A stretch of 30,543 bases of DNA, taken from positions 1 through 30,543 of IMG/VR virus record IMGVR_UViG_3300020470_000134, one strand, 5' to 3'. Under the pieces are notes generated by a model. It did not search any database. It saw only the letters and a list, made by a program, of their open reading frames with translations, and was not told the origin of the DNA. The position numbers and the translations under genes are program-made. Below, in pieces: positions 8,495-27,670 of this stretch (positions within the stretch are counted from its first letter, which is position 1; the number at the start of each line of letters is the position of its first letter). The stretch comes from a virus.

Positions 8495-9864
8495 TGGATA
8501 TAGAAAAACAATTAGCAAGATTTATCGATCCTAAAGCAACTAATCGTGCGCGAGTTGAAAACACAGCGACTAAATTATTGTCCAGACTAGGAGCGGATCC
8601 GCGAAGAGTAGGGGGTATGCTGTTTAATCAGGCTTTAGGTCAAATGCCACAAATACAGGAGTACGGTCGTAAGGCTTTAGGAATGACTACACCTGAAGAA
8701 AGGATAAATACCGCAGCAAAAAATTTACAACAAACTTTGCCGCAAACTGATCTAATGAATGCAATACCAGGATTGTTATCTGCTGAATACGGTCCTATTG
8801 CAGGACAAATGTTTGCGAGGAATCTAAGAAGAGAGAATCTTGCTGACGAATATACTGAAGCGCAAATTGCTGCGACAGAAGCAAAAGCCTCATATGATAT
8901 CTCGCGAGCTGGAGATGCAACTAGGGCTCGTATTCAGGAATATAATGAAGCTATTTATGCCACAAATTTAGTCAAAGATAATCCTGACTATACGAATGTT
9001 CCGAGAGATGAAAAGGGAAATCTTAATCTCACCCCAGAGGGTATAAAAAACATTATTGAAGCTTTCGATGGAACTGAGGCTAAAGATCCAATAACGGTTA
9101 TGGGGGCTGATGGTAAACCACATTCTGTATTGATAGGCACTGATGGTCGTTTTTACGATATGCAGGGAAATGAGTTAGAAGGTAAGGACATACCTGATTT
9201 TGTTTTCTCTACTGGCTTACAAGCATCTGAGCTTAAAAATGTTGGTGGGTTAAGTGATGCTGTGATTGATGATTATAATCAGCGCAGAGCTAATTTTGAA
9301 ACACTGTTACAAGTAGCCTCGCAAGCAAAACAACTTTTACAAACGCAGCCATCCGCTAACACTACAATTGGTGATATGGCTGCCACATTAAATGACATCA
9401 ACACTAATTTGCGCTATTTGTTTAATGATATGCAAATGTCAGAAACTTTAGATTTAGAGGAAGTTAACAGACTAGCTTCTGGCATGCACTCAGAAATACC
9501 TGGTCTAAGCTATTCAGGCACAATATTTGAAAATAAAAAATTTACTGAACTTGGTTTAAATGCTCGTGAGTTAGACAGCATGATTACACAGATGGCCTTT
9601 TTGTTGGCTAAGTCCCAACAAAACGGCAACTCAATCAGTAATAGAGATATTGCAGACAAGAAGATTGAATTAGGAGCAAACTCTCAAGATCCAAGAGTTA
9701 TGGTTCGCAACATGGATCGTTTGATTAGCACTGCTGCAGCACAATATGAAGGTGCTTTCACACGTGCTACTGGTCAAGCACCTCCACAATGGAATTGGCA
9801 AGAAAGATATAGAACCCAATTTGAAAAGGATGCTGCCGAGTCTGCTAGTAACTTAGGATTCTAA
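8494..9864 (+). CDS. Internal virion protein-like, unknown
   Basis: 456 aa, mostly helical and soluble, with no enzymatic motif seen. A strong GGAGGAG ribosome site lies inside the end of the preceding gene. A middle section (DPITVMGADGKPHSVLIGTDGRFYDMQGNEL) looks like a small beta insert. The C-terminal half is helical (LLQVASQAKQLLQTQ...). The position matches that of the gp15-like ejection protein in T7-type gene order, but no direct similarity is claimed. Confidence 0.55.
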   Translation: MDIEKQLARFIDPKATNRARVENTATKLLSRLGADPRRVGGMLFNQALGQMPQIQEYGRKALGMTTPEERINTAAKNLQQTLPQTDLMNAIPGLLSAEYGPIAGQMFARNLRRENLADEYTEAQIAATEAKASYDISRAGDATRARIQEYNEAIYATNLVKDNPDYTNVPRDEKGNLNLTPEGIKNIIEAFDGTEAKDPITVMGADGKPHSVLIGTDGRFYDMQGNELEGKDIPDFVFSTGLQASELKNVGGLSDAVIDDYNQRRANFETLLQVASQAKQLLQTQPSANTTIGDMAATLNDINTNLRYLFNDMQMSETLDLEEVNRLASGMHSEIPGLSYSGTIFENKKFTELGLNARELDSMITQMAFLLAKSQQNGNSISNRDIADKKIELGANSQDPRVMVRNMDRLISTAAAQYEGAFTRATGQAPPQWNWQERYRTQFEKDAAESASNLGF

Positions 9865-9866
9865 TT

Positions 9867-12335
9867 ATGGCTGAAAACAGACAATACACACAAGAACAGA
9901 TTGATAATGCATATAACCATTTCAGTGTATACGGCACGAGGGGTATGAACGATGATCAGATTGCTACGTACAACGATATGCGTTCTCAAGGACTGTTCCC
10001 CAGGTTTGCTGAAGATGTACCCGATGCTGATACGTTAAATTTTCTATCATCTGAGGTTGGTGCTGCTGGTGATCTTGCAGCTACCATGATTGCTGGCACC
10101 CCTGTTACAGAAAGATCTCCTACTCTAGACTTGCTAAGAGGAACTGCAGAAACAGTTTGGAATGCTGCAATAGCTCCTACCATGGTTGCTGGGGCGACAG
10201 GTGTTAATGCATTAGTAGGTACACCCTACAGAATAATACGAGGAGATACTTTTGGTGAGGCGTTTAAAGCTTTAGCTGATGATATGGAGAGCATGTTTGG
10301 TCATTTAACTTTTGCTCCCAGATCTGTATCTGGTGCGATTGCTTTAGGTGCTATTAATACTGGTTTTGCTACCTATGATCGAGCTACAGATAAGATAGCA
10401 ACAGTTAGTGCCGAGGCCCTGGCTGATCCATTGCTTTATGATGGAGCTGAAGAATTAGGAATAAGCAATGAAGAATATGCAACGCAAATAAATCAATTAA
10501 GAGAAACGCAGAAAACAATCACTGAAATGTTAGATAACAATGAAACACCTTCTGCTGAACTAATGAACATGTTTAATGAGCAAAGGGAGGCACTAGGTCC
10601 AATAGGGACGCCTAGACAAGGTTTTGCTTATCCAGCTTTTTACCACACTATTAAAACGCTACTTGATTTTGGTCCTGATATTGCTTTTACGGGTGGTCAA
10701 GTGGCAATGCGTAATCGCGCAATTGCCAACGCTAATAAGCAATTGCGCGAGATGGGATTTGATCCTGAAGACATTTCAGTAGACCGTTTGCAAAAATTAG
10801 CTACGAAAGGTAATGAAGTTATTGATGGATTGACAGGAGCGCAACGTGTTAGAGGTGAGGATCTTGGTAGCTTTCAAATTAAAGGTGAAGCATTAAGTCC
10901 TGACAATCTTCAAAAATCAATTATGGAGGCGCAAGAAGCTGAAAGAGAAATGGCTGCAGCCATGTATGCAGAAGCGAGGGAGTCCGATGCATGGGTATCA
11001 ACTAATCAGTTTCAATTGTTAGAGGGATTTTTAGCAAATCATCCTGATTTCAAATGGAATAGGTTTGATATTAAAACCGCTACTTTAACAAGAAACTATA
11101 TGGAAGAACTGTCCAAGATGGGCAAAAAGCCAGACATGGAGTTTGCACAAGGTCGTAACACAGGAGAAACAAGACCAACCGGCACTGACGATGTGTTTGA
11201 ACCTTTTACTGATGTTGATCAAATCTGGGCTTTGCGGCAGCGAATCAATAAATCAATCGAAAACTATGAAGTGACAAAATCTGGTAAAAATGTCACTCCA
11301 GAGCACTTAAATGATTTAGAAGGTTTAAAGTGGTTAAGGAGGGGATATGATCAATGGATCGATGCTGCTTTCAAATCCGATTTAATGGGTGATCCTGCAA
11401 ATTTGGCTAAATGGCGAAATGCAAATAAGTTTTATACCGAGTATTTCGCAAAATTTGAAGGTGACGCATTTATGCGTCAATTCTTAGAGACACCAAAAAC
11501 CAATGAAGAAATTAGGCGATTAATTTTTGGGTTAACCGATTCTGGATTTAAACCAGAAGCAGCCAGAAGTGTAAGACAACTGGCTAATATCTTTGGTGAG
11601 GATAGTCCACAGATGGATTTTCTACGCAATGATATTGCCTTTTCATTGTTTGAACCTATTACAAGACCTGCTAATACTCAGGCAAACAACCTGGCGGTTT
11701 ATCAAAATCGATACGATCAATACTTCAGACGAGATGCTACTTTAATGAAAGAACTTTTCGATGCCAATCAGATCGAAAAGTTCGAGTTGTTTAATAGGAT
11801 CGTTGAGGCAGATTTTGAATCTATGCGACTTAACCCAGATATGGCATCAAGATCTACCTTGGTGCAAGAAGGAGCGAAAGAAAGAAGCCAAATGCAAACA
11901 TTAATAAATAATGCTGGAGCCTTGGTTTTTGCTAAGAGTGTGCCTGGAGGAGGTCAAACTGGTTTAGCTCAAGCTGGTATGGTTATGAGAAGTGGCAGAA
12001 TGATTATGGATAAACTGACAGACTTTAAAAGGTCTGGGATGAATGATCATCAACAATTTATGGCATCTTTTTTAAACCTAGATCCGCGATTGAGTACAAG
12101 TACTTTGACACATTTGAAAAGTCTAAACCCTGTACCTCGCCCTGGTAATATTGGGTTACGCAGAGAAGCTTCAGAGGCTCTCGCTGGGCAGGATCTTGAG
12201 GATGTTAATCTACAGGCACTGCGAAACATTGTTGAAGCTTTAGAAGGAGCTGCTGTTGATGATACTCCGCAAGAAGAGATACCAAGATCTAACCCATTGA
12301 GAAGTCCTGGCCTTTATATGGGATTGATTGATTAG
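9867..12335 (+). CDS. Large internal virion / DNA-ejection-type protein
   Basis: 822 aa, the largest protein in the window and the last gene of the structural block. The N-terminal 100 residues are acidic; two Ala/Gly-rich segments follow (about 85-125 and 150-170). The C-terminal half is charged and helical with Asp/Trp/Arg-rich pieces (DQIWALRQRINKSIENYE, WLRRGYDQWIDAAF, NKFYTEYFAKFEGDAFM) of the kind seen in the large internal proteins of environmental podoviruses. I see no lytic transglycosylase motif (T7 gp16 carries one), so any peptidoglycan activity must come from elsewhere. It is followed by the attachment region. Confidence 0.6.
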   Translation: MAENRQYTQEQIDNAYNHFSVYGTRGMNDDQIATYNDMRSQGLFPRFAEDVPDADTLNFLSSEVGAAGDLAATMIAGTPVTERSPTLDLLRGTAETVWNAAIAPTMVAGATGVNALVGTPYRIIRGDTFGEAFKALADDMESMFGHLTFAPRSVSGAIALGAINTGFATYDRATDKIATVSAEALADPLLYDGAEELGISNEEYATQINQLRETQKTITEMLDNNETPSAELMNMFNEQREALGPIGTPRQGFAYPAFYHTIKTLLDFGPDIAFTGGQVAMRNRAIANANKQLREMGFDPEDISVDRLQKLATKGNEVIDGLTGAQRVRGEDLGSFQIKGEALSPDNLQKSIMEAQEAEREMAAAMYAEARESDAWVSTNQFQLLEGFLANHPDFKWNRFDIKTATLTRNYMEELSKMGKKPDMEFAQGRNTGETRPTGTDDVFEPFTDVDQIWALRQRINKSIENYEVTKSGKNVTPEHLNDLEGLKWLRRGYDQWIDAAFKSDLMGDPANLAKWRNANKFYTEYFAKFEGDAFMRQFLETPKTNEEIRRLIFGLTDSGFKPEAARSVRQLANIFGEDSPQMDFLRNDIAFSLFEPITRPANTQANNLAVYQNRYDQYFRRDATLMKELFDANQIEKFELFNRIVEADFESMRLNPDMASRSTLVQEGAKERSQMQTLINNAGALVFAKSVPGGGQTGLAQAGMVMRSGRMIMDKLTDFKRSGMNDHQQFMASFLNLDPRLSTSTLTHLKSLNPVPRPGNIGLRREASEALAGQDLEDVNLQALRNIVEALEGAAVDDTPQEEIPRSNPLRSPGLYMGLID

Positions 12336-12564: not shown

Positions 12565-12600
12565 GGAAGGGAGAGGGTTCGAATCCCTCTCTCACCGCCA
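12565..12600 (+). other. attP core: 3' fragment of tRNA-Ser
   Basis: The T-arm GAGGG-TTCGAAT-CCCTC is followed by the acceptor strand TCTCACC, discriminator G and encoded CCA, as at the 3' end of tRNA-Ser genes. No D-arm, anticodon arm or 5' acceptor strand precedes it, so it is not a complete tRNA gene. Phages using a tRNA 3' end as core regenerate the host tRNA on integration. Integration into a host tRNA-Ser gene is therefore predicted. Confidence 0.85.
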
Positions 12601-12618: not shown

Positions 12619-13866
12619 TTAAAGTTTTGTTATTTTAGAGATTTTTTTCGGACGCTTTTCGGACGCTACTTTTTTTACAATGTTGTGATCTGACTCAAGC
12701 ATCTCTAGATTCTGTTTTTGATATTTCTTAATAAACTTAGCGTACACGTTTAAGAAAGTACCGGTATCATGTCCCATTTGTTCAGCTGCCCAGGCTGGAT
12801 TAACACCACGACTTAATAGTTCAGATGCCCTTGTGTGTCTAAAGCTGTAAGGTGGCTTGTGAGGGAGCCTGAGTCGCCTTCTAGCTTTATGGTAAGCTTT
12901 ATCAAAATACTCAGTATCAACACAAGGATTACCGTACTGGTTTACAAAGACATAACCATTGGCAAAACGTGTTGTGCTTTCTCTTAAAAATTTTCGAACC
13001 CACTCTGGAACATAAACATCTCGTAAGGCTCTTTCTGTTTTTCCTACACCTTCTAGGATTTCTCTATCACTTACACAACGATCTATATTGATATGGGTTT
13101 CATCGTCAGACCAATCTGTCCAACGCAAGGGTAAGATCTCCTGCGGTCGTAATCCAAGACCTACAAATAGGACAAAATAAAGCTGTACTTGATCAGCGGC
13201 TGCTGGAGCATAAATACTAGATGTTTTGTTTTGATTTGTAGGTTCAGGCAATTCATTGATAATTGCCTGAACTTGTTCTGGCAACCAGACCTTGTTTAAC
13301 GTAATAGATTTTTTAGCTTGAGAATTAACACGTAAGCGTTTGCTGTTATCTTCATTTTGAAACAAACCGTTAGTAGCTAACTGCTCTTTGTTGTATTTGC
13401 AGACAGTAAAGCAAAGTCTATTAAAAACACCCATCATGTTTTGATTGCGTTTTCTGCCTGTATTTCGTTCTTTTAAAAACTTTTCAAGGTGATCCTTAGT
13501 GATATCAGCAATCAGTGTATTGCCAAAATATGGCACCATAAAGTTTTCTAAATCTTTTATATGCTGTTTTTTAGTTTTCTTTTGTAGTTTGTCCAAGTGA
13601 TGTTCAATGTAGGTTTTTGCAGCATCACAGAATCTAATCATTCCAGATGTCATTTCATCTAACTCTTTTAAATCAGCCCCAAGATTTAATCTGAGTAGTT
13701 GCTCTTTTAAATGGTTGATAGCTAGATGACGATCTTTAACTCGATTTGTTTTAGTCCCTTTTAATCGTTTGTCATACAGAGTTGTATTATCTGCCGTTTT
13801 ACGAATTTTTATTCGGAAAGTTCCTTTGTCATCGTAAATGTGTTTAGGCCACTTGTTTTTATCCAT
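12619..13866 (-). CDS. int: Tyrosine-recombinase integrase
   Basis: 415 aa. The N-terminal arm-binding-like region is about 1-60, the core-binding domain about 75-185, the catalytic domain about 190-385. Catalytic residues visible: Arg240 (GLGLRPQE), Lys276 (GKTERALRD), Arg343 (PYSFRHT), His366 (EQMGHDTG) and the nucleophile Tyr375 (NVYAKF). The first His of the HxxR box is Tyr340, a substitution known in some integrases. It lies next to attP and would integrate and, with the excisionase-like protein, excise the phage at tRNA-Ser. The start carries the recurrent module GAGGTAAACGCATG. The 3' end contains two arm-site repeats. Confidence 0.95.
   Translation of the reverse strand: MDKNKWPKHIYDDKGTFRIKIRKTADNTTLYDKRLKGTKTNRVKDRHLAINHLKEQLLRLNLGADLKELDEMTSGMIRFCDAAKTYIEHHLDKLQKKTKKQHIKDLENFMVPYFGNTLIADITKDHLEKFLKERNTGRKRNQNMMGVFNRLCFTVCKYNKEQLATNGLFQNEDNSKRLRVNSQAKKSITLNKVWLPEQVQAIINELPEPTNQNKTSSIYAPAAADQVQLYFVLFVGLGLRPQEILPLRWTDWSDDETHINIDRCVSDREILEGVGKTERALRDVYVPEWVRKFLRESTTRFANGYVFVNQYGNPCVDTEYFDKAYHKARRRLRLPHKPPYSFRHTRASELLSRGVNPAWAAEQMGHDTGTFLNVYAKFIKKYQKQNLEMLESDHNIVKKVASEKRPKKISKITKL
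12648..12666 (+). repeat. Integrase arm-type repeat pair, right arm (inside int)
   Basis: TCGGACGC at 12648 and again at 12659, matching the left-arm pair in sequence, orientation and spacing. These copies lie within the last codons of the integrase gene, so coding sequence and binding site overlap. Confidence 0.65.
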
Positions 13867-14018
13867 GCGTTTACCTCATTAAGATTAATCATTGTCTGTT
13901 TACCTAGCACTACATAGTGCTTATTTCTTTCCCAGCGTTTCATCCAATTGCTTACAACATTGTGTGAAACACCTGTCATCTCTTCATATCGTTTTCTATG
14001 TACAAATTCTGAAGTCAT
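13809..14018 (-). CDS. xis: Excisionase-like small DNA-binding protein
   Basis: 69 aa, overlapping the integrase start by 58 nt. The sequence VVSNWMKRWERNKHYVVLGKQTMINLNEVNAWI matches the small winged-helix excisionase-like proteins (DUF1233/AlpA-type) that read '...G..t.i...eV..Wi'. It probably bends attP DNA and directs excision. AGGAG about 10 nt upstream of the ATG lies inside the end of the preceding gene, and the start region (TTACGAAATG) loosely resembles the recurrent start module. Confidence 0.75.
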   Translation of the reverse strand: MTSEFVHRKRYEEMTGVSHNVVSNWMKRWERNKHYVVLGKQTMINLNEVNAWIKTSGLNTFTMTKELSE

Positions 14019-14031
14019 TTCGTAATAACTC

Positions 14032-15333
14032 CTAATGTATTGTGCTTGAAGGTTCTAAAGTATTAGCTTGCTTTAGAAACCCAGGCTTTTTAGCTAAGAC
14101 ATAATCCTTCGTCACAGTGCCGTACTTACTGTCTCCACGATGATGTTCCTTGATCCATACCCTAATGCCAGTTTTCTTATAGACTCTCCAGTGTCCTCGC
14201 ACAGAGTGTTCGGCTGTACCGAACTTACGTGTGCGAGGCATAGGCTTCATAAACTCTTTGACGGCTTTGTCCTTGGGCAAATTAATCGTTACTCGCTTGT
14301 AGAGATCCTGGGGGAGTACCTCAGTGTTAACGCTTTTGCTGCCTCTGGCTATTACGCCAGCTTCTTTGTTTACTACCCAATCGTAATTCAACATTGAAAT
14401 GGCTGAGAGCATTATTAAAAAAGCATGTTTTTCGTAACCAAACCACATTTTGTTAGGCTGGAGATATAATTGCATCGTGGCAGATTCAACGGGTTTCCAA
14501 GTAGAGTGATATTTGTTTTGATCTCTAATATGATCTGTGTCCAGTTCACGCATAGTACAATGTGGCCCAATGCCGATATACGCACCTATTTCTTCAATGT
14601 CTTTTGGAATATGTTCTAGCTCTAACCATTTTTTTAAAACGACAGATCCGTTTGTGTCAGGCAGCTGCCCATTCATAGTTTTTTCTATAGCAGCTTCTGG
14701 TAAATTCTTTGAGTGTTTTTGAAGCATTTCTGCATATGACTTCATATCCTCTTCCATAAATATGCTTAGAGTTGCTGGGGAAGTATAAACATAATTGTCT
14801 TTCTTATTAGCCCAATGAAACATGAATTCCTGTCGGCTAGGCGAAACTTCTTTTGAGATTTTCTTGGTATAATAGCTATACATTTCTTGAACAGGATGTC
14901 TCCTATAATTACTTGAAACACCCATCATGTCAGGCATTATCATGCCTTCAAAAGGTTTTCCACCAGCTTGCACTCTCTGTTGATAATTCATTTCAATTAC
15001 TTCTTGTTCTAATTCATTTATATTTAATAATTCACTCGCATAAGCTGCATCCCATTCCATAAAAAAATTATGGTTTGGGGGTCTGGCCCTCCAAAATGCA
15101 TCGACAAATTGCCTGAGTTTCTTTTTGTTAACTGCTGTACAAATCACATCAAGTAATTCGTTTTCCAGCAAATAGGGAGTTGCAGTTGCTATCCATCTTG
15201 CATCGGATCTGAAAACGTCTTTTGTATATTTTTTATTAGCACTTTTTTCAAAGCCAAAATTTCTGGTGTATGGCTGCTGAAAGCTATATGCAACCTTTGA
15301 TCGTAGCTCACCAATCTCTATCTTATTTTTCAT
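14032..15333 (-). CDS. Unknown protein with conserved RGHWR C-terminal motif
   Basis: 433 aa, the largest unknown gene in the leftward operon. The first 300 residues are helical, rich in Trp/Tyr and Met, with no nucleotide-binding or nuclease motif I recognise. The C-terminal 60 residues contain HSVRGHWRVYKKTGIRVW, then HHRGDSKYGTVTKDYVL, a compact basic beta-hairpin-like segment that I have the impression recurs in phage and bacterial hypothetical proteins. Neighbours (SSB, exonuclease, xis) suggest DNA binding or a role in the lysis-lysogeny block. Function unknown. The start is preceded by CGAGTACGCACTA, a weak form of the recurrent start module. Confidence 0.6.
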   Translation of the reverse strand: MKNKIEIGELRSKVAYSFQQPYTRNFGFEKSANKKYTKDVFRSDARWIATATPYLLENELLDVICTAVNKKKLRQFVDAFWRARPPNHNFFMEWDAAYASELLNINELEQEVIEMNYQQRVQAGGKPFEGMIMPDMMGVSSNYRRHPVQEMYSYYTKKISKEVSPSRQEFMFHWANKKDNYVYTSPATLSIFMEEDMKSYAEMLQKHSKNLPEAAIEKTMNGQLPDTNGSVVLKKWLELEHIPKDIEEIGAYIGIGPHCTMRELDTDHIRDQNKYHSTWKPVESATMQLYLQPNKMWFGYEKHAFLIMLSAISMLNYDWVVNKEAGVIARGSKSVNTEVLPQDLYKRVTINLPKDKAVKEFMKPMPRTRKFGTAEHSVRGHWRVYKKTGIRVWIKEHHRGDSKYGTVTKDYVLAKKPGFLKQANTLEPSSTIH

Positions 15334-17578: not shown

Positions 17579-18253
17579 TTAGAGGATGATATCTACCTGG
17601 ATAACCCTACCAATGACATGATCTTTATCTGTAATTTTAAAGATCCGGTCAGGGTAGTCAGTGTTGGTAAATTCGCAGTAATTGTTTCCTTTCCAGTTTG
17701 CGACATCCCAGCTTTTGCCTCTAAGCAAAAGCACAGGCTTGCCGATCTCAGGAGACTGCTCTACATCAACGTAGAGCCACGATCCGTCTGGAATGGTACT
17801 CATGGCTTCACCACGCTGCTGAAGAGCGTAGGTACTGTCTGAGTGATTCTGAGGGCAATGTCTGAACTCCGTTATTTTAGGGGCCTTGCCTTTGCTAATT
17901 GCTGCTATTAAATCTACCACACTGTCACCATCTAAAACTTTAACTTGCCTAAAGGCAACCTTAGAGGAAATGGGTAGATTTGCTGCTGCAGCCTCTATTT
18001 TAGCGGCTACAAGAGGTGAGATCTCATCAATTCTCACGCCCAGTATTTCTGCAAGCTCTGGCACTCGGTCGTCAGGTATCAAGGATTCGCTTTTTGTCCC
18101 AGGCTTTGCTTTCATCCATTTGGAAACAGCGGTCTGGGTTACTTTCGGATCTAATGCGTTAGCGAGATCAATTTGATCAAAAGTCTCGCCTCTTGCATTA
18201 GCTTCCAACTGACGTTGTTTAAATATTTTTTCGAGTCGTTTAAAATCTTCCAT
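17579..18253 (-). CDS. cI: cI-type repressor with degenerate S24 domain
   Basis: 224 aa from ATG 18253. The N-terminal HTH is about 1-75 (IDLANALDPKVTQTAVSKWMK), the C-terminal S24/LexA-like domain about 95-224. In the catalytic block the usual G-[DE]-S-M reads GEAM, so the nucleophile Ser is Ala150; the downstream Lys candidate is Lys188 (NWKG). Self-cleavage is therefore not expected and induction may need an antirepressor. TATAAT lies 6 nt before the ATG, so the mRNA is probably leaderless like lambda cI from PRM. An in-frame TTG at 18289 has no RBS. It should bind the operators at 18263-18317, 17546-17560 and 27213-27227. Confidence 0.85.
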   Translation of the reverse strand: MEDFKRLEKIFKQRQLEANARGETFDQIDLANALDPKVTQTAVSKWMKAKPGTKSESLIPDDRVPELAEILGVRIDEISPLVAAKIEAAAANLPISSKVAFRQVKVLDGDSVVDLIAAISKGKAPKITEFRHCPQNHSDSTYALQQRGEAMSTIPDGSWLYVDVEQSPEIGKPVLLLRGKSWDVANWKGNNYCEFTNTDYPDRIFKITDKDHVIGRVIQVDIIL

Positions 18254-18259
18254 CCCCAC

Positions 18260-18317
18260 ATTATAACCATCAGTTATGTCAAATAACAAACAGTTTTCAA
18301 ATCGGACAAGTAGTCTG
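18260..18317. promoter_or_regulatory. Immunity operator array and cI promoter
   Basis: Three dyads centred at 18270, 18290 and 18310: ATAAC-CATCA-GTTAT, ATAAC-AAACA-GTTTT and CGGAC-AAGTA-GTCTG, exactly 20 bp apart (two helical turns). The cI promoter -10 (TATAAT on the minus strand, 18260-18265) overlaps the first site; a TTGTTA in the second site is a possible -35 at 18 nt. The decreasing match suggests graded affinities as in lambda OR. Confidence 0.65.
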
Positions 18318-20060: not shown

Positions 20061-20424
20061 ATTTCTATTATTAGCTGCATACCACAACCATGAAGTTGTG
20101 TTGAATGGGAAAGTTGTCAGCTTGAGGAAGGGTCAATTTATTTTCGGAAGAGATAGTTTTGCAAAACGGTTAAATCTGACCAGCTCAAAAGTAAGAAAAT
20201 TTGTAAACGAGGCTGAAACGCACCGGATGATTAGCCGAGTCAGATGTTCGAAATATTCAATAATATCAATAGTTAATTATGAAAAATTTCAAAAGTCGCC
20301 AGCAAAACGACCAACATCGCGCCAGCAGAGCACCAGCACAGCACCACATACAAATAAGGTAAATAAAGTGAATAAGGTAAATAAAACAGGATACATGAAA
20401 TACGATGAAGGTTATGGCATATGA
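19918..20424 (+). CDS. Phage O-like replication initiator
   Basis: 168 aa from TTG 19918, chosen for its AGGAG 7 nt upstream; GTG 19990 with AGGG 3 nt upstream is an alternative giving 144 aa and starting where relatives usually begin. The winged-helix part (about 25-115) has YVSLHRQIRSHWVYQD, LWIEFLLLAAYHN, GQFIFGRDSFAKRLNLTSSKVRKFV and SIISIVNYEKFQ, the pattern of lambda O / DnaD-like replication proteins. The Ser/Thr/Lys-rich tail contains NKVNKVNKVNK, encoded by tandem repeats that may be the origin. The last bases overlap the helicase ATG (ATGA). It probably opens the origin and loads the helicase. Confidence 0.75.
   Translation: MSQEQKQIGSDISKQSFLLSEPGYVSLHRQIRSHWVYQDASYLKLWIEFLLLAAYHNHEVVLNGKVVSLRKGQFIFGRDSFAKRLNLTSSKVRKFVNEAETHRMISRVRCSKYSIISIVNYEKFQKSPAKRPTSRQQSTSTAPHTNKVNKVNKVNKTGYMKYDEGYGI
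20353..20388 (+). repeat. Tandem iteron-like repeats, candidate origin
   Basis: Two 18-bp units, AATAAGGTAAATAAAGTG then AATAAGGTAAATAAAACA, each built from two 9-mers of form AATAARGTR. They lie in the 3' part of the O-like gene, as lambda iterons lie in gene O, and are AT-rich. A coding explanation (Asn-Lys-Val repeats) is also possible. Confidence 0.45.
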
Positions 20425-21377
20425 GTTTTGAAAAAGTTGATGTCACTGAATTTACTAATGCCGAGCTGCAAGAGGCCATGTCGGTGGCCTCATCGCAGCG
20501 AATAAGTTCCTTTGAGGATATCGGTGAGCGAGTTCATCACAGGATTGAAAATCCAAGGAGCACATCAGGATTTATGTTGCCCTGGAGTAAGTGTGCGGAT
20601 CTAGTGAGAATAAGGAAGAAAGAACTCAGCCTCGTTGCTGGATTAGCAGGACATCGAAAAACGACTTTAGTATCTCAACTCCTACTTTATCTGTCGCAAC
20701 AAACCAAAGTCGGGTTAGCAAGTTTTGAAATGGACCTTGAAGATGTAGCCGAGATTATGATCTGGCAAGCAGCAGCATCAGGATCCGCACCGTCGAGGCA
20801 ATTTGTAAATCACTTCTTGGAGTACACCAAGGGCAAAATCTACGGTTTCGATTATCGTGGAACAGTTGCGCCACTGATGGCCTTGGGCATCATTCGCGCA
20901 ATGGCAGAGAAGGGGTGTGAAGTTATTTGTCTTGATTCGCTAATGATGTGTGGAATAAATAACGACCTTGACGCGGAAAGAGAGTTTGTCTCAGCACTAA
21001 CCGGTCTTGCTCGATCCCTTGATGTTCATGTCATGTTAGTTCATCACGCTCTAGAAAAGAAAAACGATGGAGAGGCTCAGATTCCTCAACGGCAGACCAT
21101 TCGAGGCAATGGAGCTATCGTGGATCTATGCTCTACAGTGTTTCTTGTTTGGCTCAATAAGAAAAAGATGGAACTGATGCAAAAGCAGGAAAACTATCCT
21201 GAACCTCTAGAAGAAAAAGAAGAGGAATATATTGAAACCCATTGTTGTCAAAAATTGATTGTCGCAAAGCAGAGATACCATCCTTTCGAAGGTTCGATCA
21301 ATCTCTGGTCGCATCCAAGTAGACAAATGCTATCTCACAAGGGTGCCAATTCTGTTGCATTGGATTTTGGAAAATGA
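20421..21377 (+). CDS. DnaB/RecA-fold replicative helicase or loader ATPase
   Basis: 318 aa single-domain ATPase. Walker A is GLAGHRKTT (74-82), H1a-like SFEMD (101-105), Walker B CEVICLDS (166-173), then VMLVHHALEK (204-213) and RQTIRGNGAIVDLCSTVFLV (224-243), as in the C-terminal domain of DnaB, gp41 and twinkle helicases. The N-terminal domain of DnaB is absent. It follows the O-like and zinc-finger genes and may unwind phage DNA as a hexamer. It lacks a primase domain, so priming needs the zinc-finger protein plus host DnaG. Confidence 0.85.
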   Translation: MSFEKVDVTEFTNAELQEAMSVASSQRISSFEDIGERVHHRIENPRSTSGFMLPWSKCADLVRIRKKELSLVAGLAGHRKTTLVSQLLLYLSQQTKVGLASFEMDLEDVAEIMIWQAAASGSAPSRQFVNHFLEYTKGKIYGFDYRGTVAPLMALGIIRAMAEKGCEVICLDSLMMCGINNDLDAEREFVSALTGLARSLDVHVMLVHHALEKKNDGEAQIPQRQTIRGNGAIVDLCSTVFLVWLNKKKMELMQKQENYPEPLEEKEEEYIETHCCQKLIVAKQRYHPFEGSINLWSHPSRQMLSHKGANSVALDFGK

Positions 21378-23534: not shown

Positions 23535-23936
23535 TTAACTGCTTGCCACAGAGAGAATTTCATCAAAATCTAATTCCCGATACAAAAGTGGTTCAGCTCT
23601 ATGCTCTTGATGCCATCTGCAATAACCTAAAATAGGGAAATGAAACTCGTCCATCTCTTTACCCCACGGATTAAAAATAACCTCAATTAAACCCCATTTT
23701 CCTGCGGTGCCTAGAAATTGTTCTGCTGAACTTTCATCGTGTTTTTTCCATTCAACAATTACAGCGTCATCATAAACTTCGTGAAAGTTGTTTGCTTTCC
23801 AAACAGCGCGGTCTTGTTCTAATTCATAATATTGTCTTCCAACAATCGCACAAATGTTTGCAATAACATCGATGGCTGGCTCTGGAATTGAAATAATTGA
23901 AAAGTCATCTTCTGTCTCGGATTCTTTTGTTGTCAT
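23535..23936 (-). CDS. Hypothetical protein, 133 aa
   Basis: Last gene of the accessory operon, 33 nt before the terminator. Acidic, soluble, Trp-rich (VWKANN, VEWKKHDES, GKWGLIEVIFNPWGKEM). No family recognised. The start has the recurrent module GAGGACAATACGCAATG, and the ATG overlaps the preceding stop (ATGA). Confidence 0.6.
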   Translation of the reverse strand: MTTKESETEDDFSIISIPEPAIDVIANICAIVGRQYYELEQDRAVWKANNFHEVYDDAVIVEWKKHDESSAEQFLGTAGKWGLIEVIFNPWGKEMDEFHFPILGYCRWHQEHRAEPLLYRELDFDEILSVASS

Positions 23937-24199
23937 TGCGTATTGTCCTCAACATATTTTTTCAGTTTACTTATTTTTTTAGTTAGGGAATCTTCAGACC
24001 AATCAAAACCCTTAACTGGATAACCGTCTATCGGCTCACAAAACATAGAATCTAAATAGTAACTTTCAACTTCGTCATATTCATCGTCAGAATTGTGAAT
24101 GAATAACCACTGATCTATTATTTTAAAATTTAACTTTGCGTCCTGATCTATATATATCCCTCGATTTCCAAACCAATTCCTCACTTGTTCTTCATTCAT
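23933..24199 (-). CDS. Hypothetical acidic protein, 88 aa
   Basis: ATG 24199 chosen: it carries the recurrent module GAGGAAAATACGCATG; the frame is open upstream to 24250 without RBS. Asp/Glu-rich middle (HNSDDEYDEVESYYLDSM) and a basic helical end. The acidity could mimic DNA, as in anti-restriction proteins, but no known family is seen. Confidence 0.6.
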   Translation of the reverse strand: MNEEQVRNWFGNRGIYIDQDAKLNFKIIDQWLFIHNSDDEYDEVESYYLDSMFCEPIDGYPVKGFDWSEDSLTKKISKLKKYVEDNTQ

Positions 24200-24437
24200 G
24201 CGTATTTTCCTCTTTAAGTATTTTTTCATGTTGTTGCCGTCCAGCTTCAATAGATTCTGAAATCATATCGTAAGCAACCTTTGAGGCCGGCGCTGACTCT
24301 AAAGCCATAAAAGTAGCGTACATAATCATAATTGAACTTAATTCAGCCGGTGATCCTACATCCTGTTGCTGATATTCTTCACTAAGCTTTATCAATCGTG
24401 ACCATACGAAATCCTGAATCTCTTGAGCTGATTTCAC
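24192..24437 (-). CDS. Hypothetical helical protein, 81 aa
   Basis: GTG 24437 with the recurrent module GAGGAAAAACGCAAGTG, overlapping the preceding stop (GTGA). All-helical with an Ala/Met-rich core (AELSSIMIMYATFMALESAPASKVAYDMI), possibly dimeric. No membrane segment is clear, and no family is recognised. Confidence 0.6.
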   Translation of the reverse strand: MKSAQEIQDFVWSRLIKLSEEYQQQDVGSPAELSSIMIMYATFMALESAPASKVAYDMISESIEAGRQQHEKILKEENTHE

Positions 24438-24859
24438 TTGCGTTTTTCCTCTAAATAAAAATTCATCTCAAAACCGCCGGTCTGCGGTACAGTTATCCAT
24501 ACCAGATCATTGCAAGCTTCGGTGATTAAATCGTCTGGATGAAAATTAAATTTCTCATGAATCAAATCTAGACTTTCTGCAGTAGGATGAGGTGAATCTG
24601 GATCTTTCTGCAAGATTTTGCTGGCGTTGACCTTCTCAACAAAGTCTAACCATCGCTGGTCCTTCTCTACCCAATCGGATAGTTCTCGCTGGTTGTTACC
24701 CATATTTACTGGATCAAGATTAGTATTTAAAAACATATGCATGTGCGTATTCCTCTGTAAGCCGGTGTAAGCCGGTGCCGGTGCAAAAGGCCGGTGCCGG
24801 TGATTATTGTTAATATATAATAGATAGTAATAATTATGTAGTTCAGCCGGTGTCCTCAC
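24434..24859 (-). CDS. Hypothetical protein with two possible starts
   Basis: GTG 24859 has a near-ideal AGGAGGTGA nine bases upstream, giving 141 aa. ATG 24742 has the recurrent module GAGGAATACGCAC, giving 102 aa. The extra 39 residues (HNYYYLLYINNNHRHRPFAP...) are partly encoded by the GCCGGT repeat array and look unlike a folded domain. The common part (ELSDWVEKDQRWLDFVEKV..., HPDDLITEACNDLVWITVPQ) is acidic and soluble. Two products may be made. No family recognised. Confidence 0.6.
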   Translation of the reverse strand: MRTPAELHNYYYLLYINNNHRHRPFAPAPAYTGLQRNTHMHMFLNTNLDPVNMGNNQRELSDWVEKDQRWLDFVEKVNASKILQKDPDSPHPTAESLDLIHEKFNFHPDDLITEACNDLVWITVPQTGGFEMNFYLEEKRK

Positions 24860-25120
24860 CGCTTGTCACCTCCTGCCGGTGTTATGCCGGTTTAAATTAC
24901 AAAATATCCAGAAAAAGTTTTTCTCCACAAATCTTTAGGGGGTCTATTTCTGAAAAATGGTATTCTACTTCGCTTCATTTGCATGTTGCGTAATCGAATG
25001 AGTCCGTCACTCCCATCGCCTCGAAATTGTCGATATAAAAATACTGTTCTATTCATTTTTATCTTTCTCTGTTAGGCCGGTTTTAAAATAATGGATTTGC
25101 CACTTAAGCCGGTCGCCGGT
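24761..25120 (+). repeat. GCCGGT repeat array
   Basis: Thirteen direct copies of GCCGGT lie between 24476 and 25120, five of them within 24761-24801, and three more at 25600-25640. Only one copy of the complement (25753) is seen in the stretch. The hexamers fall in several reading frames and in non-coding DNA, so a nucleotide-level function or local expansion is likely. Confidence 0.6.
24892..25056 (-). CDS. Small basic protein, 54 aa
   Basis: ATG 25056 overlaps the end of the previous small gene, with AGAGAAAG about 6 nt upstream. The sequence is Arg/Lys/Phe-rich (MNRTVFLYRQFRGDG, MKRSRIPFFRNRPPKDLWRK), basic enough to bind nucleic acid. It fills most of what otherwise looks like a 350-bp gap. 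Supported by the chain of overlaps with its neighbours; no family recognised. Confidence 0.45.
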   Translation of the reverse strand: MNRTVFLYRQFRGDGSDGLIRLRNMQMKRSRIPFFRNRPPKDLWRKTFSGYFVI

Positions 25121-25210
25121 GCTATTTCGCCTTATTAGATTTGCACGAGCCATCATTTGACTCGCGGATCCGTAGGACTTGATAGCACCATTGACAACTA
25201 AAACATACAT
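25049..25210 (-). CDS. Small basic protein, 53 aa
   Basis: ATG overlaps the stop of the Cys-rich gene in a TAATG arrangement, and its end overlaps the next small gene. MYVLVVNGAIKSYGSASQMMARANLIRRN is a beta-then-helix start; the end is charged (KTGLTEKDKNE). Internal GCCGGT copies fall in different reading frames. No family recognised. The evidence is positional. Confidence 0.5.
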   Translation of the reverse strand: MYVLVVNGAIKSYGSASQMMARANLIRRNSTGDRLKWQIHYFKTGLTEKDKNE

Positions 25211-25920
25211 TAGGCAGCATCACTTGCGATTAAATTCGCCTTTTTCTTTCGTGCTCCATGGGCTGGAAATAATACAATCGAATCTCTATCAGCGCGCTGG
25301 CATAACTGGCAATTTTTGCAATTGACGTTCTCTTTGTATGTTGCAGGACATGTAATCGCTTTTATGGGTTCGATTCCTTTTCCAAACATATGCACTTGCG
25401 TCTTAGTTGGATAATCTTCTGGAACTACTGCAGTAACCGGTAATTTAAATTTGGCCTTATAGAATAAAGCTTGTTTTAAATTGTTAGCCGATAAATTGAT
25501 AGTAAATCCGTTTTTATTCGCGGATCTGATAGCGCGTAAATTATTTTGCGCCTCGGCATGCTGCCAAACCGGTTTGTGGGTATACGTGAACCCTTTTAGG
25601 CCGGTGTTTGCTTTAACAAGCCGGTCCATCATAGGCCGGTCGATTTTAGACTTTGAGCCCGGTAAATCTCCAGCGACATTGTGTCGCCATAAAGTACCAG
25701 GATCTAGATTCTTGATTTTATCAAGTAGATCGTCGAAAGATCCTCCGCGTTCACCGGCATCGAGTCGATTCCAATTTAAACGAGTGAAATAGCCAGCTTC
25801 AGCGTAGCAACTATCGTCTAGAAAAGGACACTCTGGAGGGCATGATGCCCTAGCAGTGCTCGTAACTGGGATCCGTCCAGTTTTATCATTCTCTGATTTC
25901 TCTACGAATTGAAAATTCAT
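25210..25920 (-). CDS. Cys-rich CPxxCP...CYAExG phage protein, metal or FeS binding
   Basis: 236 aa. The N-terminal TSTARASCPPECPFLDDSCY then AEAGYF; the middle LWRHNVAGDLPG and KGFTYTHKPVW; the end ITCPATYKENVNCKNCQLCQ. I associate these blocks with a widespread phage family of unknown function (of the DUF7227 kind), with Cys clusters at both ends; the layout recalls DUF5131 'gp37/gp68' radical-SAM-like proteins. Three cysteines at 27, 31 and 38 could ligate an iron-sulfur cluster or zinc. A role in nucleotide or nucleic-acid modification is possible but unproven. The start has GGAGGTAAACGC upstream. Confidence 0.7.
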   Translation of the reverse strand: MNFQFVEKSENDKTGRIPVTSTARASCPPECPFLDDSCYAEAGYFTRLNWNRLDAGERGGSFDDLLDKIKNLDPGTLWRHNVAGDLPGSKSKIDRPMMDRLVKANTGLKGFTYTHKPVWQHAEAQNNLRAIRSANKNGFTINLSANNLKQALFYKAKFKLPVTAVVPEDYPTKTQVHMFGKGIEPIKAITCPATYKENVNCKNCQLCQRADRDSIVLFPAHGARKKKANLIASDAA

Positions 25921-25939
25921 ATTTTGCGTTTACCTCCGT

Positions 25940-25986
25940 TAATAGCCGAATTGCTATTAAATAGAGCGCCTCTCCAGGCGCTCTAT
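25940..25986 (-). promoter_or_regulatory. Double hairpin between accessory genes
   Basis: Perfect 10-bp stem ATAGAGCGCC/GGCGCTCTAT with loop TCTCCA (25961-25986), then TAATAGC-CGAATT-GCTATTA (25940-25959) abutting the Shine-Dalgarno of the next gene on the minus strand. Poor T-tract, so probably RNA processing, partial termination or mRNA protection. Confidence 0.65.
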
Positions 25987-25998
25987 ATGATAGCTACT

Positions 25999-26265
25999 CT
26001 AAAATGATGCTCTGATCTGATCGTAATTTTTAAACTCATCAGCTGAGATCTGAAGCAATCTGTTGAGAGTTTCATTGCGGATCTGTACAGCTCCCTCTGG
26101 AGTTGATCCATATACGCGCTGAATGGTGAATAATGCTTTCGTGATCTCTAGAGCTTGTTTATCTTTGAGGATCTCAGCCAATAACCAAACAGCGTCAGTA
26201 TGGTTATTACATTCAGTAAGATCTCGAATATCTCTTAAATGTTGACTAGGAAAATATCGCATCAT
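25999..26265 (-). CDS. Hypothetical protein, 88 aa
   Basis: Two adjacent ATGs (26265, 26262). The second is 6 nt from GGAGG and may be the real start (87 aa); the first overlaps the upstream stop. Helical, mixed charge (HTDAVWLLAEILKDKQALEITKALF). No family recognised. The gene is unusually dense in GATC sites. Confidence 0.6.
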   Translation of the reverse strand: MMRYFPSQHLRDIRDLTECNNHTDAVWLLAEILKDKQALEITKALFTIQRVYGSTPEGAVQIRNETLNRLLQISADEFKNYDQIRASF

Positions 26266-26504
26266 TTTCCTCCCTGGGCAGAATCAGATAACCAGGACCA
26301 GTTACCAGTTACTGATGAAAATAAAGCCTTCTGAAGATCTTCAGCGCTATTCTTGAAAGCTCTATTAATTTGATCAGCATAATGATGATCAGTCTTTAAA
26401 CTCTCATAAGCGAAATGATGGTATCCAGTTTCACCTGCAGAGATTGAAATATATACATCGTCTACTGGATGCATTACCACAAACCTTCTATCTGAAATAT
26501 TCAT
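26262..26504 (-). CDS. Hypothetical protein, 80 aa
   Basis: Start carries the recurrent module GAGGTAATACGCTATG preceded by a leader hairpin. Beta-rich start (RRFVVMHPVDDVYISISAGETGYHHFAY) then helical. No family recognised. Confidence 0.6.
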   Translation of the reverse strand: MNISDRRFVVMHPVDDVYISISAGETGYHHFAYESLKTDHHYADQINRAFKNSAEDLQKALFSSVTGNWSWLSDSAQGGK

Positions 26505-26528
26505 AGCGTATTACCTCGTGTAGTTATC

Positions 26529-26572
26529 GATATCTAATTGATATCACTCTAGGCGCTCTCACAAGCGCCTAG
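26529..26572 (-). promoter_or_regulatory. Double hairpin between accessory genes
   Basis: Perfect 9-bp stem CTAGGCGCT/AGCGCCTAG (26549-26572), then GATATC-TAATT-GATATC (26529-26545), then the start module. Same order and same AGCGCC/GGCGCT core as the element at 25940-25986. Confidence 0.65.
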
Positions 26573-26583
26573 ACTGCTACCAA

Positions 26584-26892
26584 CTAAATTATCCAATCGT
26601 CGCTATATTCTGACAGTATGATTGCAGCTGCAGATTGAGCGGCTTTAATGGGATCTATACAGTATTTATCAAAGACAATCTTTTCGGCTTCCTTCCTAGT
26701 GATTCGATGCAATATCATTCGAGCTTGTATCTTTTCTTCTAAACAATCCCAATCTGATAACTTAGCATCTTCATTTTTAAGCGCTGGACATCCTAACTTA
26801 GCGAATAACTTGCAGCGCTTCTCATAATCGTCGAATTCGTGTAGACAATCATGGTCCCAAGGTTCACCACAGTGTTTGCAATGTAGATCCAT
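26584..26892 (-). CDS. Zinc-ribbon phage protein, 102 aa
   Basis: Begins MDLHCKHCGEPWDHDCLHE, a CxxC plus His/Cys knuckle of a type seen in small phage proteins, with further cysteines (C27, C35, C50). The C-terminal half is helical (RKEAEKIVFDKY...). ATG overlaps the upstream stop (TAATG). Likely zinc-bound; function unknown. Confidence 0.65.
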   Translation of the reverse strand: MDLHCKHCGEPWDHDCLHEFDDYEKRCKLFAKLGCPALKNEDAKLSDWDCLEEKIQARMILHRITRKEAEKIVFDKYCIDPIKAAQSAAAIILSEYSDDWII

Positions 26893-27152
26893 TATTCAGC
26901 CCTCCAGGTAACAGATCCTGACGCCATGGGATCCCATTTGTAGTTGAAAGTATTATCAGAAGCCTGGAGCGCTTCTAAGACCTCAATAATGCTCATATCG
27001 TCAGTAAATGCCGTTGGTATCGTATCGGTCTCAAATAACTCTCGGATTGAATAGCCTTTATATTGTGCAAGCTTGATGTCGGGATTTTGATATTTTGCCA
27101 TCCAGGTACCATTCGAAAGGAATATAGTAACTACTGGTCTTCTTTTACTCAT
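26892..27152 (-). CDS. Hypothetical protein, first gene of accessory operon
   Basis: 86 aa. Start module GAGGTAATACGCAATG, 44 nt after the predicted transcription start. RRPVVTIFLSNGTWMAKYQNPDIKLA is beta-rich; the rest is acidic. No family recognised. As the first gene under an operator-controlled promoter it should be expressed early and silenced in lysogeny. Confidence 0.65.
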   Translation of the reverse strand: MSKRRPVVTIFLSNGTWMAKYQNPDIKLAQYKGYSIRELFETDTIPTAFTDDMSIIEVLEALQASDNTFNYKWDPMASGSVTWRAE

Positions 27153-27174
27153 TGCGTATTACCTCGTTTAATAT

Positions 27175-27196
27175 TGATTCACATTATTATGAATCA
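27175..27196 (-). promoter_or_regulatory. 5' leader hairpin of accessory operon mRNA
   Basis: TGATTC-ACATTATTAT-GAATCA lies where the predicted promoter should start transcription (near 27196), so the mRNA would begin with a stem-loop, a known stabilising arrangement. Confidence 0.5.
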
Positions 27197-27202
27197 TCGT
27201 TC

Positions 27203-27232
27203 CTTATAGCATATAACAAATAGTTATCTCAA
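27203..27232 (-). promoter_or_regulatory. Promoter and operator of accessory operon
   Basis: On the minus strand: -35 TTGAGA (27227-27232), 18-nt spacer, extended -10 TGC-TATAAG (27203-27208). The spacer holds ATAAC-AAATA-GTTAT (27213-27227), the best copy of the repressor operator. Binding there would block RNA polymerase. Confidence 0.7.
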
Positions 27233-27438
27233 ATGATTAGTCGGATAATGTTTTAATATCTTTAATAGGCACCTAAACGCGCTTATATATTAAACATCAG
27301 CGCTTAAAATTTCATGCGCTAAAATAATCAGTAATTAATTTTTCTGCAGATCTCAGCCTAATTGATCAATTATTGATCATTTAGATCTAATTATCCTCAT
27401 CAGCTCGTGTAAGTTATTGATTTATAACGATTCACTAA

Positions 27439-27462
27439 TTCCGGTAATTAATATTACCGGAA
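27439..27462. repeat. Perfect 24-bp inverted repeat
   Basis: TTCCGGTAAT-TAAT-ATTACCGGAA. No T-tract follows, so a protein-binding site or cruciform is more likely than a terminator. Confidence 0.7.
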
Positions 27463-27565
27463 ATAAGGATTTTAGATCTCAGACGGTCTCGCCGGAATAG
27501 CCCCCCACCCCCCTGAGTGTGTCATTATCGGTAACGGTAGCCTCACCCCCTCAAAAAAACGAAAT

Positions 27566-27581: not shown

Positions 27582-27626
27582 AAATAGCTAATTTCATACG
27601 ACTTCTGGTAATATAATTTTATATGA

Positions 27627-27670
27627 CGGATTTAGATCGGATTTAGAACGGATTTAGAGCGGATGTATGG
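27627..27670 (+). repeat. 11-bp tandem repeats into the small-terminase start
   Basis: CGGATTTAGAT, CGGATTTAGAA, CGGATTTAGAG, then CGGATGTATGG, in register with no gaps; the last copy contains the ATG of the small terminase gene (27667). The 11-bp period places each copy on one DNA face. Candidate terminase or regulator binding site. Confidence 0.7.

Follow-up and report, generated by a model that had tools for sequence, protein, structure and literature searches.

Start Associated Sequences (SAS) have been known in actinobacteriophages since 2011, and we know of no reader or function for them. In Cluster K mycobacteriophages the SAS is an ungapped 13-mer with the consensus GGGATAGGAGCCC, is present in 11–19 copies per genome and favours genes with an upstream gap of more than 50 bp (PMC3203893). 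About half of these copies are preceded directly on their 5′ side by inverted repeats (ESAS), the arms of which were judged to be DNA sites since their changes do not preserve pairing (PMC3203893). Such elements also exist beyond Cluster K, as the unrelated Cluster EF Microbacterium phages have an SAS-like consensus of their own, GGGAAAGGACCCC (PMC7302621). The operators of phage T4 RegA likewise lie where translation of many phage mRNAs begins; they are A+U-rich around the AUG and show no clear sequence conservation (PMC3014915). Finally, the mosaic junctions of phages have been proposed to carry short conserved boundary sequences (PMC3029335).

The window, by which we mean the whole 30.5-kb stretch of DNA analysed here (IMG/VR virus record IMGVR_UViG_3300020470_000134), belongs to a marine, temperate, tailed phage. 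Its landmarks are the terminase (28698), tail and lysis genes, a tyrosine integrase (int, 12619–13866, minus strand), a repressor-like gene (17579–18289, minus strand) and a primase/helicase (20421–21377). A block of small accessory genes occupies 23535–27152 on the minus strand. Seven genes of this block and int, with all gene starts taken as predicted, begin behind a common module that consists of GAGG, an A/T-rich spacer of 3–5 nt, ACGC and a further 0–5 nt before the start codon. All eight copies lie on the minus strand. The module GAGGTAATACGC-A-ATG is found at 27154–27165, 1 nt before ATG 27152, and GAGGTAATACGC-T-ATG at 26506–26517, 1 nt before ATG 26504. The DUF7227 gene 25920 is preceded by GAGGTAAACGC-AAAAT-ATG (25926–25936, 5 nt before the ATG) and gene 24742 by GAGGAATACGC-AC-ATG (24745–24755, 2 nt before the ATG). 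The start of the latter is ambiguous, with an in-frame GTG at 24859 that has a strong Shine-Dalgarno (SD) sequence of its own (AGGAGGTGA). Three further copies lie within the end of the upstream ORF: GAGGAAAAACGC-AA-GTG at 24440–24451, 2 nt before GTG 24437; GAGGAAAATACGC-ATG at 24200–24212, abutting ATG 24199; and GAGGACAATACGC-A-ATG at 23938–23950, 1 nt before ATG 23936. The copy of int, GAGGTAAACGC-ATG at 13867–13877, abuts ATG 13866.

Across these copies ACGC stands 3–5 nt from GAGG and 1, 1, 5, 2, 2, 0, 1 and 0 nt from the start (in the order 27152, 26504, 25920, 24742, 24437, 24199, 23936, 13866). The initial annotation of the window had described a fixed spacing to the start codon; this spacing is not observed, as ACGC floats on both sides. 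GAGG itself is 7–12 nt from the start, which is the ordinary Shine-Dalgarno range. Two weaker forms that had been listed at 15333 and 14018 are not supported either: CGAGTACGCACTA-ATG at 15333 reads CGAGTACTCACTA in a sister phage, so that ACGC is not kept, and GGAGTTATTACGAA at 14018 contains no ACGC. The distribution of the module is all-or-none, gene by gene. The accessory genes 26892 and 26265, whose starts fall at the stop of the preceding gene or within it, have plain SDs and no module, and the short, doubtful ORFs 25210 and 25056 are also without it. Its absence from the plus-strand genes, as stated initially, is confirmed, with ACGC before 0 of the 27 plus-strand starts in the window gene set. 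The single plus-strand match to the pattern lies away from any listed gene start, and all seven occurrences of AATACGC are on the minus strand.

The pattern is matched eight times on the minus strand of the window, against a mean of 0.08 over 300 dinucleotide shuffles, none of which exceeded 2, and ten times in the sister phage, against 0.10. The initial description of GAGG, an A/T-rich spacer and ACGC directly before seven accessory starts and int is thus correct. We also applied a word test to every non-SD word of 4 or 5 bases before the predicted starts of 86 viral sequences. The first place is taken by ACGC in the window and the second by ACGC in the sister phage (log10 P of −9.5 and −8.7; best other sequence −5.5), and the top eight places are all held by these two phages. 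Phage Anaya served as positive control: its SAS are recovered when a variant of the test is run on its annotated starts. Searches through the relatives of TerL (80 loci), DUF7227 and int found no other carrier. The sister phage has nine gene-linked copies, and in the 80 terminase relatives the module is not recurrent. No comparable rate of the motif is seen in the unrelated and distantly related phages covered, nor in 60 Pseudomonadota genomes. Exact-pattern scans of viral contigs gave at least 60 stretches with GAGGTAATACGCNATG, those listed being single copies without recurrence, and 11 stretches with GAGGAAATACGCAAATG, of which two copies together are found solely in the sister phage.

The sister phage (PBPU01000124.1; C111 of G001, L149) is a 24.4-kb contig from a Red Sea MAG. 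It was found by scanning genome contigs that hold terminase relatives, and its terminase is 100% identical to that of the window. The MAG label, Acidimicrobiaceae, was set aside as a host assignment since phage contigs are often mis-binned. The flanks of the accessory block are 86–96% identical between the two phages, and the block itself is mosaic. The module precedes nine of about eleven sister accessory genes, most of which are without a window homologue, in the forms GAGGTAATACGCAA-ATG, GAGGTGTTACGC-ATG, GAGGTAATACGC-ATG, GAGGTAAACGCAAA-ATG, GAGGATAAAACGCAA-ATG, GAGGTAATACGCAAAT-ATG, GAGGAAATACGCAA-ATG (twice) and GAGGACAACACGC-ATG; the tenth pattern match on the module strand is unplaced. 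The same nine modules are present in a further viral contig, L166, which shares 99.7% identity with the sister. Only four sister block proteins have clear window homologues (88, 90, 50 and 34% identity), and most sister modules therefore precede unrelated genes. Both phages carry the module at the pairs 26504/C9240 (88% at the amino acid level; sister form GAGGTAATACGCAA-ATG), 25920/C10542 (50%; GAGGTAAACGCAAA-ATG) and 24437/C12446 (34%; GAGGAAATACGCAA-ATG), and both lack it at the pair 26265/C10201 (90%). Past 21224 the sister contig differs, and no homologue of int is present in it, so that the comparison of modules covers the accessory block.

Several further observations were made on the two phages. 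At 9523–10201 of the sister (L164) two tandem paralogues, 38% identical, each have their own module, and at the same place in the window a single unrelated gene lies behind a homologous leader. In the window block (23535–27300) CCGG is found at 5.6 per kb versus 0.56 elsewhere, and ACCGGC occurs 16 times on the coding strand and once on the other; the sister block (L164, 8951–13000) has CCWGG at 8.6 per kb versus 2.4 and almost no CCGG. This crowding of words is the reverse of restriction-site avoidance. Just 5′ of the packaging operon on the plus strand, at 27626–27667, there are three direct repeats, ACGGATTTAGA(T/A)CGGATTTA, spaced 11 bases apart. The sister phage also keeps an inverted repeat of 13 nt that lies at 27436–27465 in the window; both elements are possible operators. 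On the 3′ side of int, GGGAGAGGGTTCGAATCCCTCTCTCACCGCCA at 12569–12600 resembles the 3′ end of a tRNA-Ser gene, and this end (12577), downstream of int, is likely to be attP. A 28-mer of this sequence matches exactly in 11 of 398 Pseudomonadota genomes, which is too common for a host assignment, and this route to the host was dropped.

A comparison of the window with the sister phage shows that three switches between homologous and non-homologous sequence coincide with the module. At the first, gene 26504 and C9240 lie behind differing leaders, and nucleotide homology starts about 11 bases before GAGG. At the second, the leaders of 26504 and C9887 are homologous (local score 36, with no shuffle above 21), and the genes behind the two leaders are unrelated. 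At the third, the leaders of 25920 and C10542 share about 82% identity, and their nucleotide homology runs no further than the start codon; the two DUF7227 proteins behind this homologous leader are only 50% identical. Homology switches at the module, and therefore genes have been exchanged behind it, which directly supports the shared cassette border, one of the options given in the initial annotation. Such exchange is in line with the short boundary sequences proposed for other phages (PMC3029335). In both cases a brief conserved stretch marks a gene border at which homology begins or breaks off, and they differ in that the published ones are not presented in that source as translation-start elements repeated before many genes of one genome.

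Two of the modules are accompanied by structured leaders on their 5′ side. A hairpin of 21 pairs is found at 26535–26586 (minus strand) before the module of 26504, with a homologue before an unrelated gene of the sister phage, and a second one at 25948–25999 (minus strand) before the module of 25920, beginning at the stop codon of gene 26265. The leaders of 26504, 25920, C9887 and C10542 all form the long hairpin, with folding z-scores of −4.5 to −5.6. In these four leaders 9 of the 21 pairs have pairing-preserving changes on both sides. The covariation score is 0.524 versus 0.232 in shuffles, a value that 0 of 500 shuffles reach and slid controls fall far below, though it rests on four related sequences, and an inverted repeat acting at the DNA level would give the same picture. 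At 27175–27196 (minus strand), 5′ of the 27152 module, there is only a small inverted repeat, TGATTCA/TGAATCA, whose folding z-score is not significant. Judged from the sequence, the 3′ strand of the hairpin could alternatively pair with a stretch just before the SD (AATAGC/GCTATT; GATATC/GATATC), and two mutually exclusive folds may therefore be possible. The idea that the module is sequestered within its own leader was dropped, since the folds give no consistent pairing. When 25 sources were searched with a covariance model of the leader, copies came up in the two phages only, and an Rfam search gave no meaningful match. The modules inside gene overlaps are without a hairpin leader, and the hairpin is therefore a separate element. 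It would form a second, separable part of the system, which probably processes, insulates or switches the message 5′ of the start.

The module resembles the Cluster K SAS in many respects. Both are short asymmetric repeats with an SD core, located a few bases before starts in one orientation; both precede different gene families and have conserved bases that are unable to pair with the 16S tail; and both are restricted to non-structural genes, here the accessory block and int. The differences are also clear. The consensus is GGGATAGGAGCCC there and GAGG-N3-5-ACGC here; the SAS is ungapped, whereas the inner spacing varies here; and the SAS prefers gaps of more than 50 bp, whereas the modules of 24437, 24199 and 23936 lie inside the upstream ORF. 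With eight copies in the window and nine in the sister contig, both partial genomes, and all in gene orientation, the copy number is slightly below that of Cluster K. A possible counterpart of the ESAS is the covarying hairpin at two window and two sister copies (weak or none at the others), but its changes keep pairing, unlike those of the ESAS. The Cluster EF element differs in sequence, host phylum and arrangement. The module may therefore best be summarized as working like the SAS/ESAS of Clusters K and EF while sharing neither their sequence nor all of their habits, and we do not file it as a member. A further repeated leader, CCGTAACCGTAAAGGAACC, was observed in DSL-LC05 (OR003940.1), a gammaproteobacterial phage from fresh water that carries a DUF7227 gene. 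It precedes three small accessory genes (L171, 5039, 5206 and 5756), two of which share 25 identical bases, and the replication genes of this phage (L192, 4048 and 8755) are preceded by GGAGTAA(A/C)TGTA-ATG.

Taken on balance, we consider it somewhat probable that the module is a lineage-specific extended ribosome-binding site, SAS-like, whose repetition also makes a border for gene exchange. It would provide one common initiation signal for int and the accessory genes, which are of the lysogenic-conversion type. Within it ACGC, which has no pairing partner in the 16S tail, would be read by something besides pairing with the 16S 3′ tail and would set the expression of this gene set. The same 11–13 bases at the head of each gene would also offer a short homology border, so that genes could be swapped under a ready-made start signal; this border role may be a by-product of the module or the reason for its spread. 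The tie to translation made in the initial annotation, whose interpretation is in sum partly supported, stands on the position of the module exactly at the ribosome-binding site before unrelated genes, but not on its argument from fixed spacing. Much of the conservation could be explained by common descent and leader copying, because only two phage lineages carry the module. ACGC is nonetheless retained despite shifting distances to GAGG and to the start and despite 34–50% protein identity behind the module, and this retention, in two lineages only, would favour function over mere copying.

The exchange border could also be the whole explanation, the module being merely a decent ribosome-binding site that recurs through recombination at its copies. 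The three breakpoints at the module suit this reading, as do the leader L2 that precedes different genes in the two phages, the position of the modules where genes meet, in several cases within the last bases of the preceding ORF, and the boundary sequences proposed in other phages (PMC3029335). Neutral copying, however, would not be expected to keep GAGG and ACGC while the spacer length and the surrounding bases vary. Moreover, int lies some 10 kb away behind unrelated upstream sequence and has the module all the same, and a homologous pair at 34% amino acid identity has kept it. We therefore regard a pure border as a possible but distinctly less probable account.

Alternatively, ACGC may be the target of a translational regulator, a RegA-like protein or a trans-acting RNA, that switches the accessory set, for example between lysogeny and lytic growth. 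One signal before many genes including int, its all-or-none distribution and its overlap with the initiation region speak for such a regulator; RegA acts at this position on about 30 mRNAs (PMC3014915), though its operators lack the sequence conservation that ACGC has here. A single rigid site is unlikely, since the distance from GAGG to ACGC varies. No CsrA is found in the window (PF02599, 0 matches, with controls detected), although a CsrA of the host could act instead, and the window gave no match to PF01818 (RegA), a profile for which the control genomes gave none either. An antisense RNA of the phage complementary to the module was rejected, because GCGTATT is absent from the minus strand (AATACGC from the plus strand) and no perfectly complementary RNA is thus encoded apart from the modules themselves. 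For the two genes shared by both blocks, AlphaFold gave only low-confidence models (pLDDT 58 and 51), which were left unused. Overall, a dedicated regulator appears unlikely.

For the extended ribosome-binding site, candidate readers of ACGC would be an RNA-binding factor of phage or host, or the ribosome itself through a contact in its exit/E-site region. The sequence GGTGAAATGCGTAGA was confirmed as E. coli 16S sequence, and we take this stretch to be the 690 loop of 16S rRNA. ACGC, often extended to UACGCA and in several copies to UACGCAU, could pair with the conserved UGCGUA of this loop, which faces the mRNA in the E site, and so make a second rRNA contact, next to the SD, favouring the accessory genes. 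The E-site codon is reported to stack on the 690 loop (PMC8318882). Six matching bases in an RNA of 1.5 kb carry little weight, however, and the variable distance to the start argues against a rigid contact; we regard this pairing as very improbable. Also hard to credit is an ordinary ribosome-binding site of the host, with the phage genes merely reflecting the host start context, since within this phage the module is absent from the structural and replication genes, and GAGG-N3-5-ACGC-N0-3-ATG, which in the 30.5-kb window has six copies or about 200 per Mb, is not recurrent in 60 sampled Pseudomonadota genomes, at no more than about 12 per Mb.

Private repeated start contexts may be common among phages. 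The module described here is a case separate from the SAS of actinobacteriophages, in a marine phage, with a different consensus, a sister genome for comparison and breakpoints at the element. This suggests that phages may repeatedly evolve a private start signal for swappable genes, which would allow the immediate expression of newly acquired genes.
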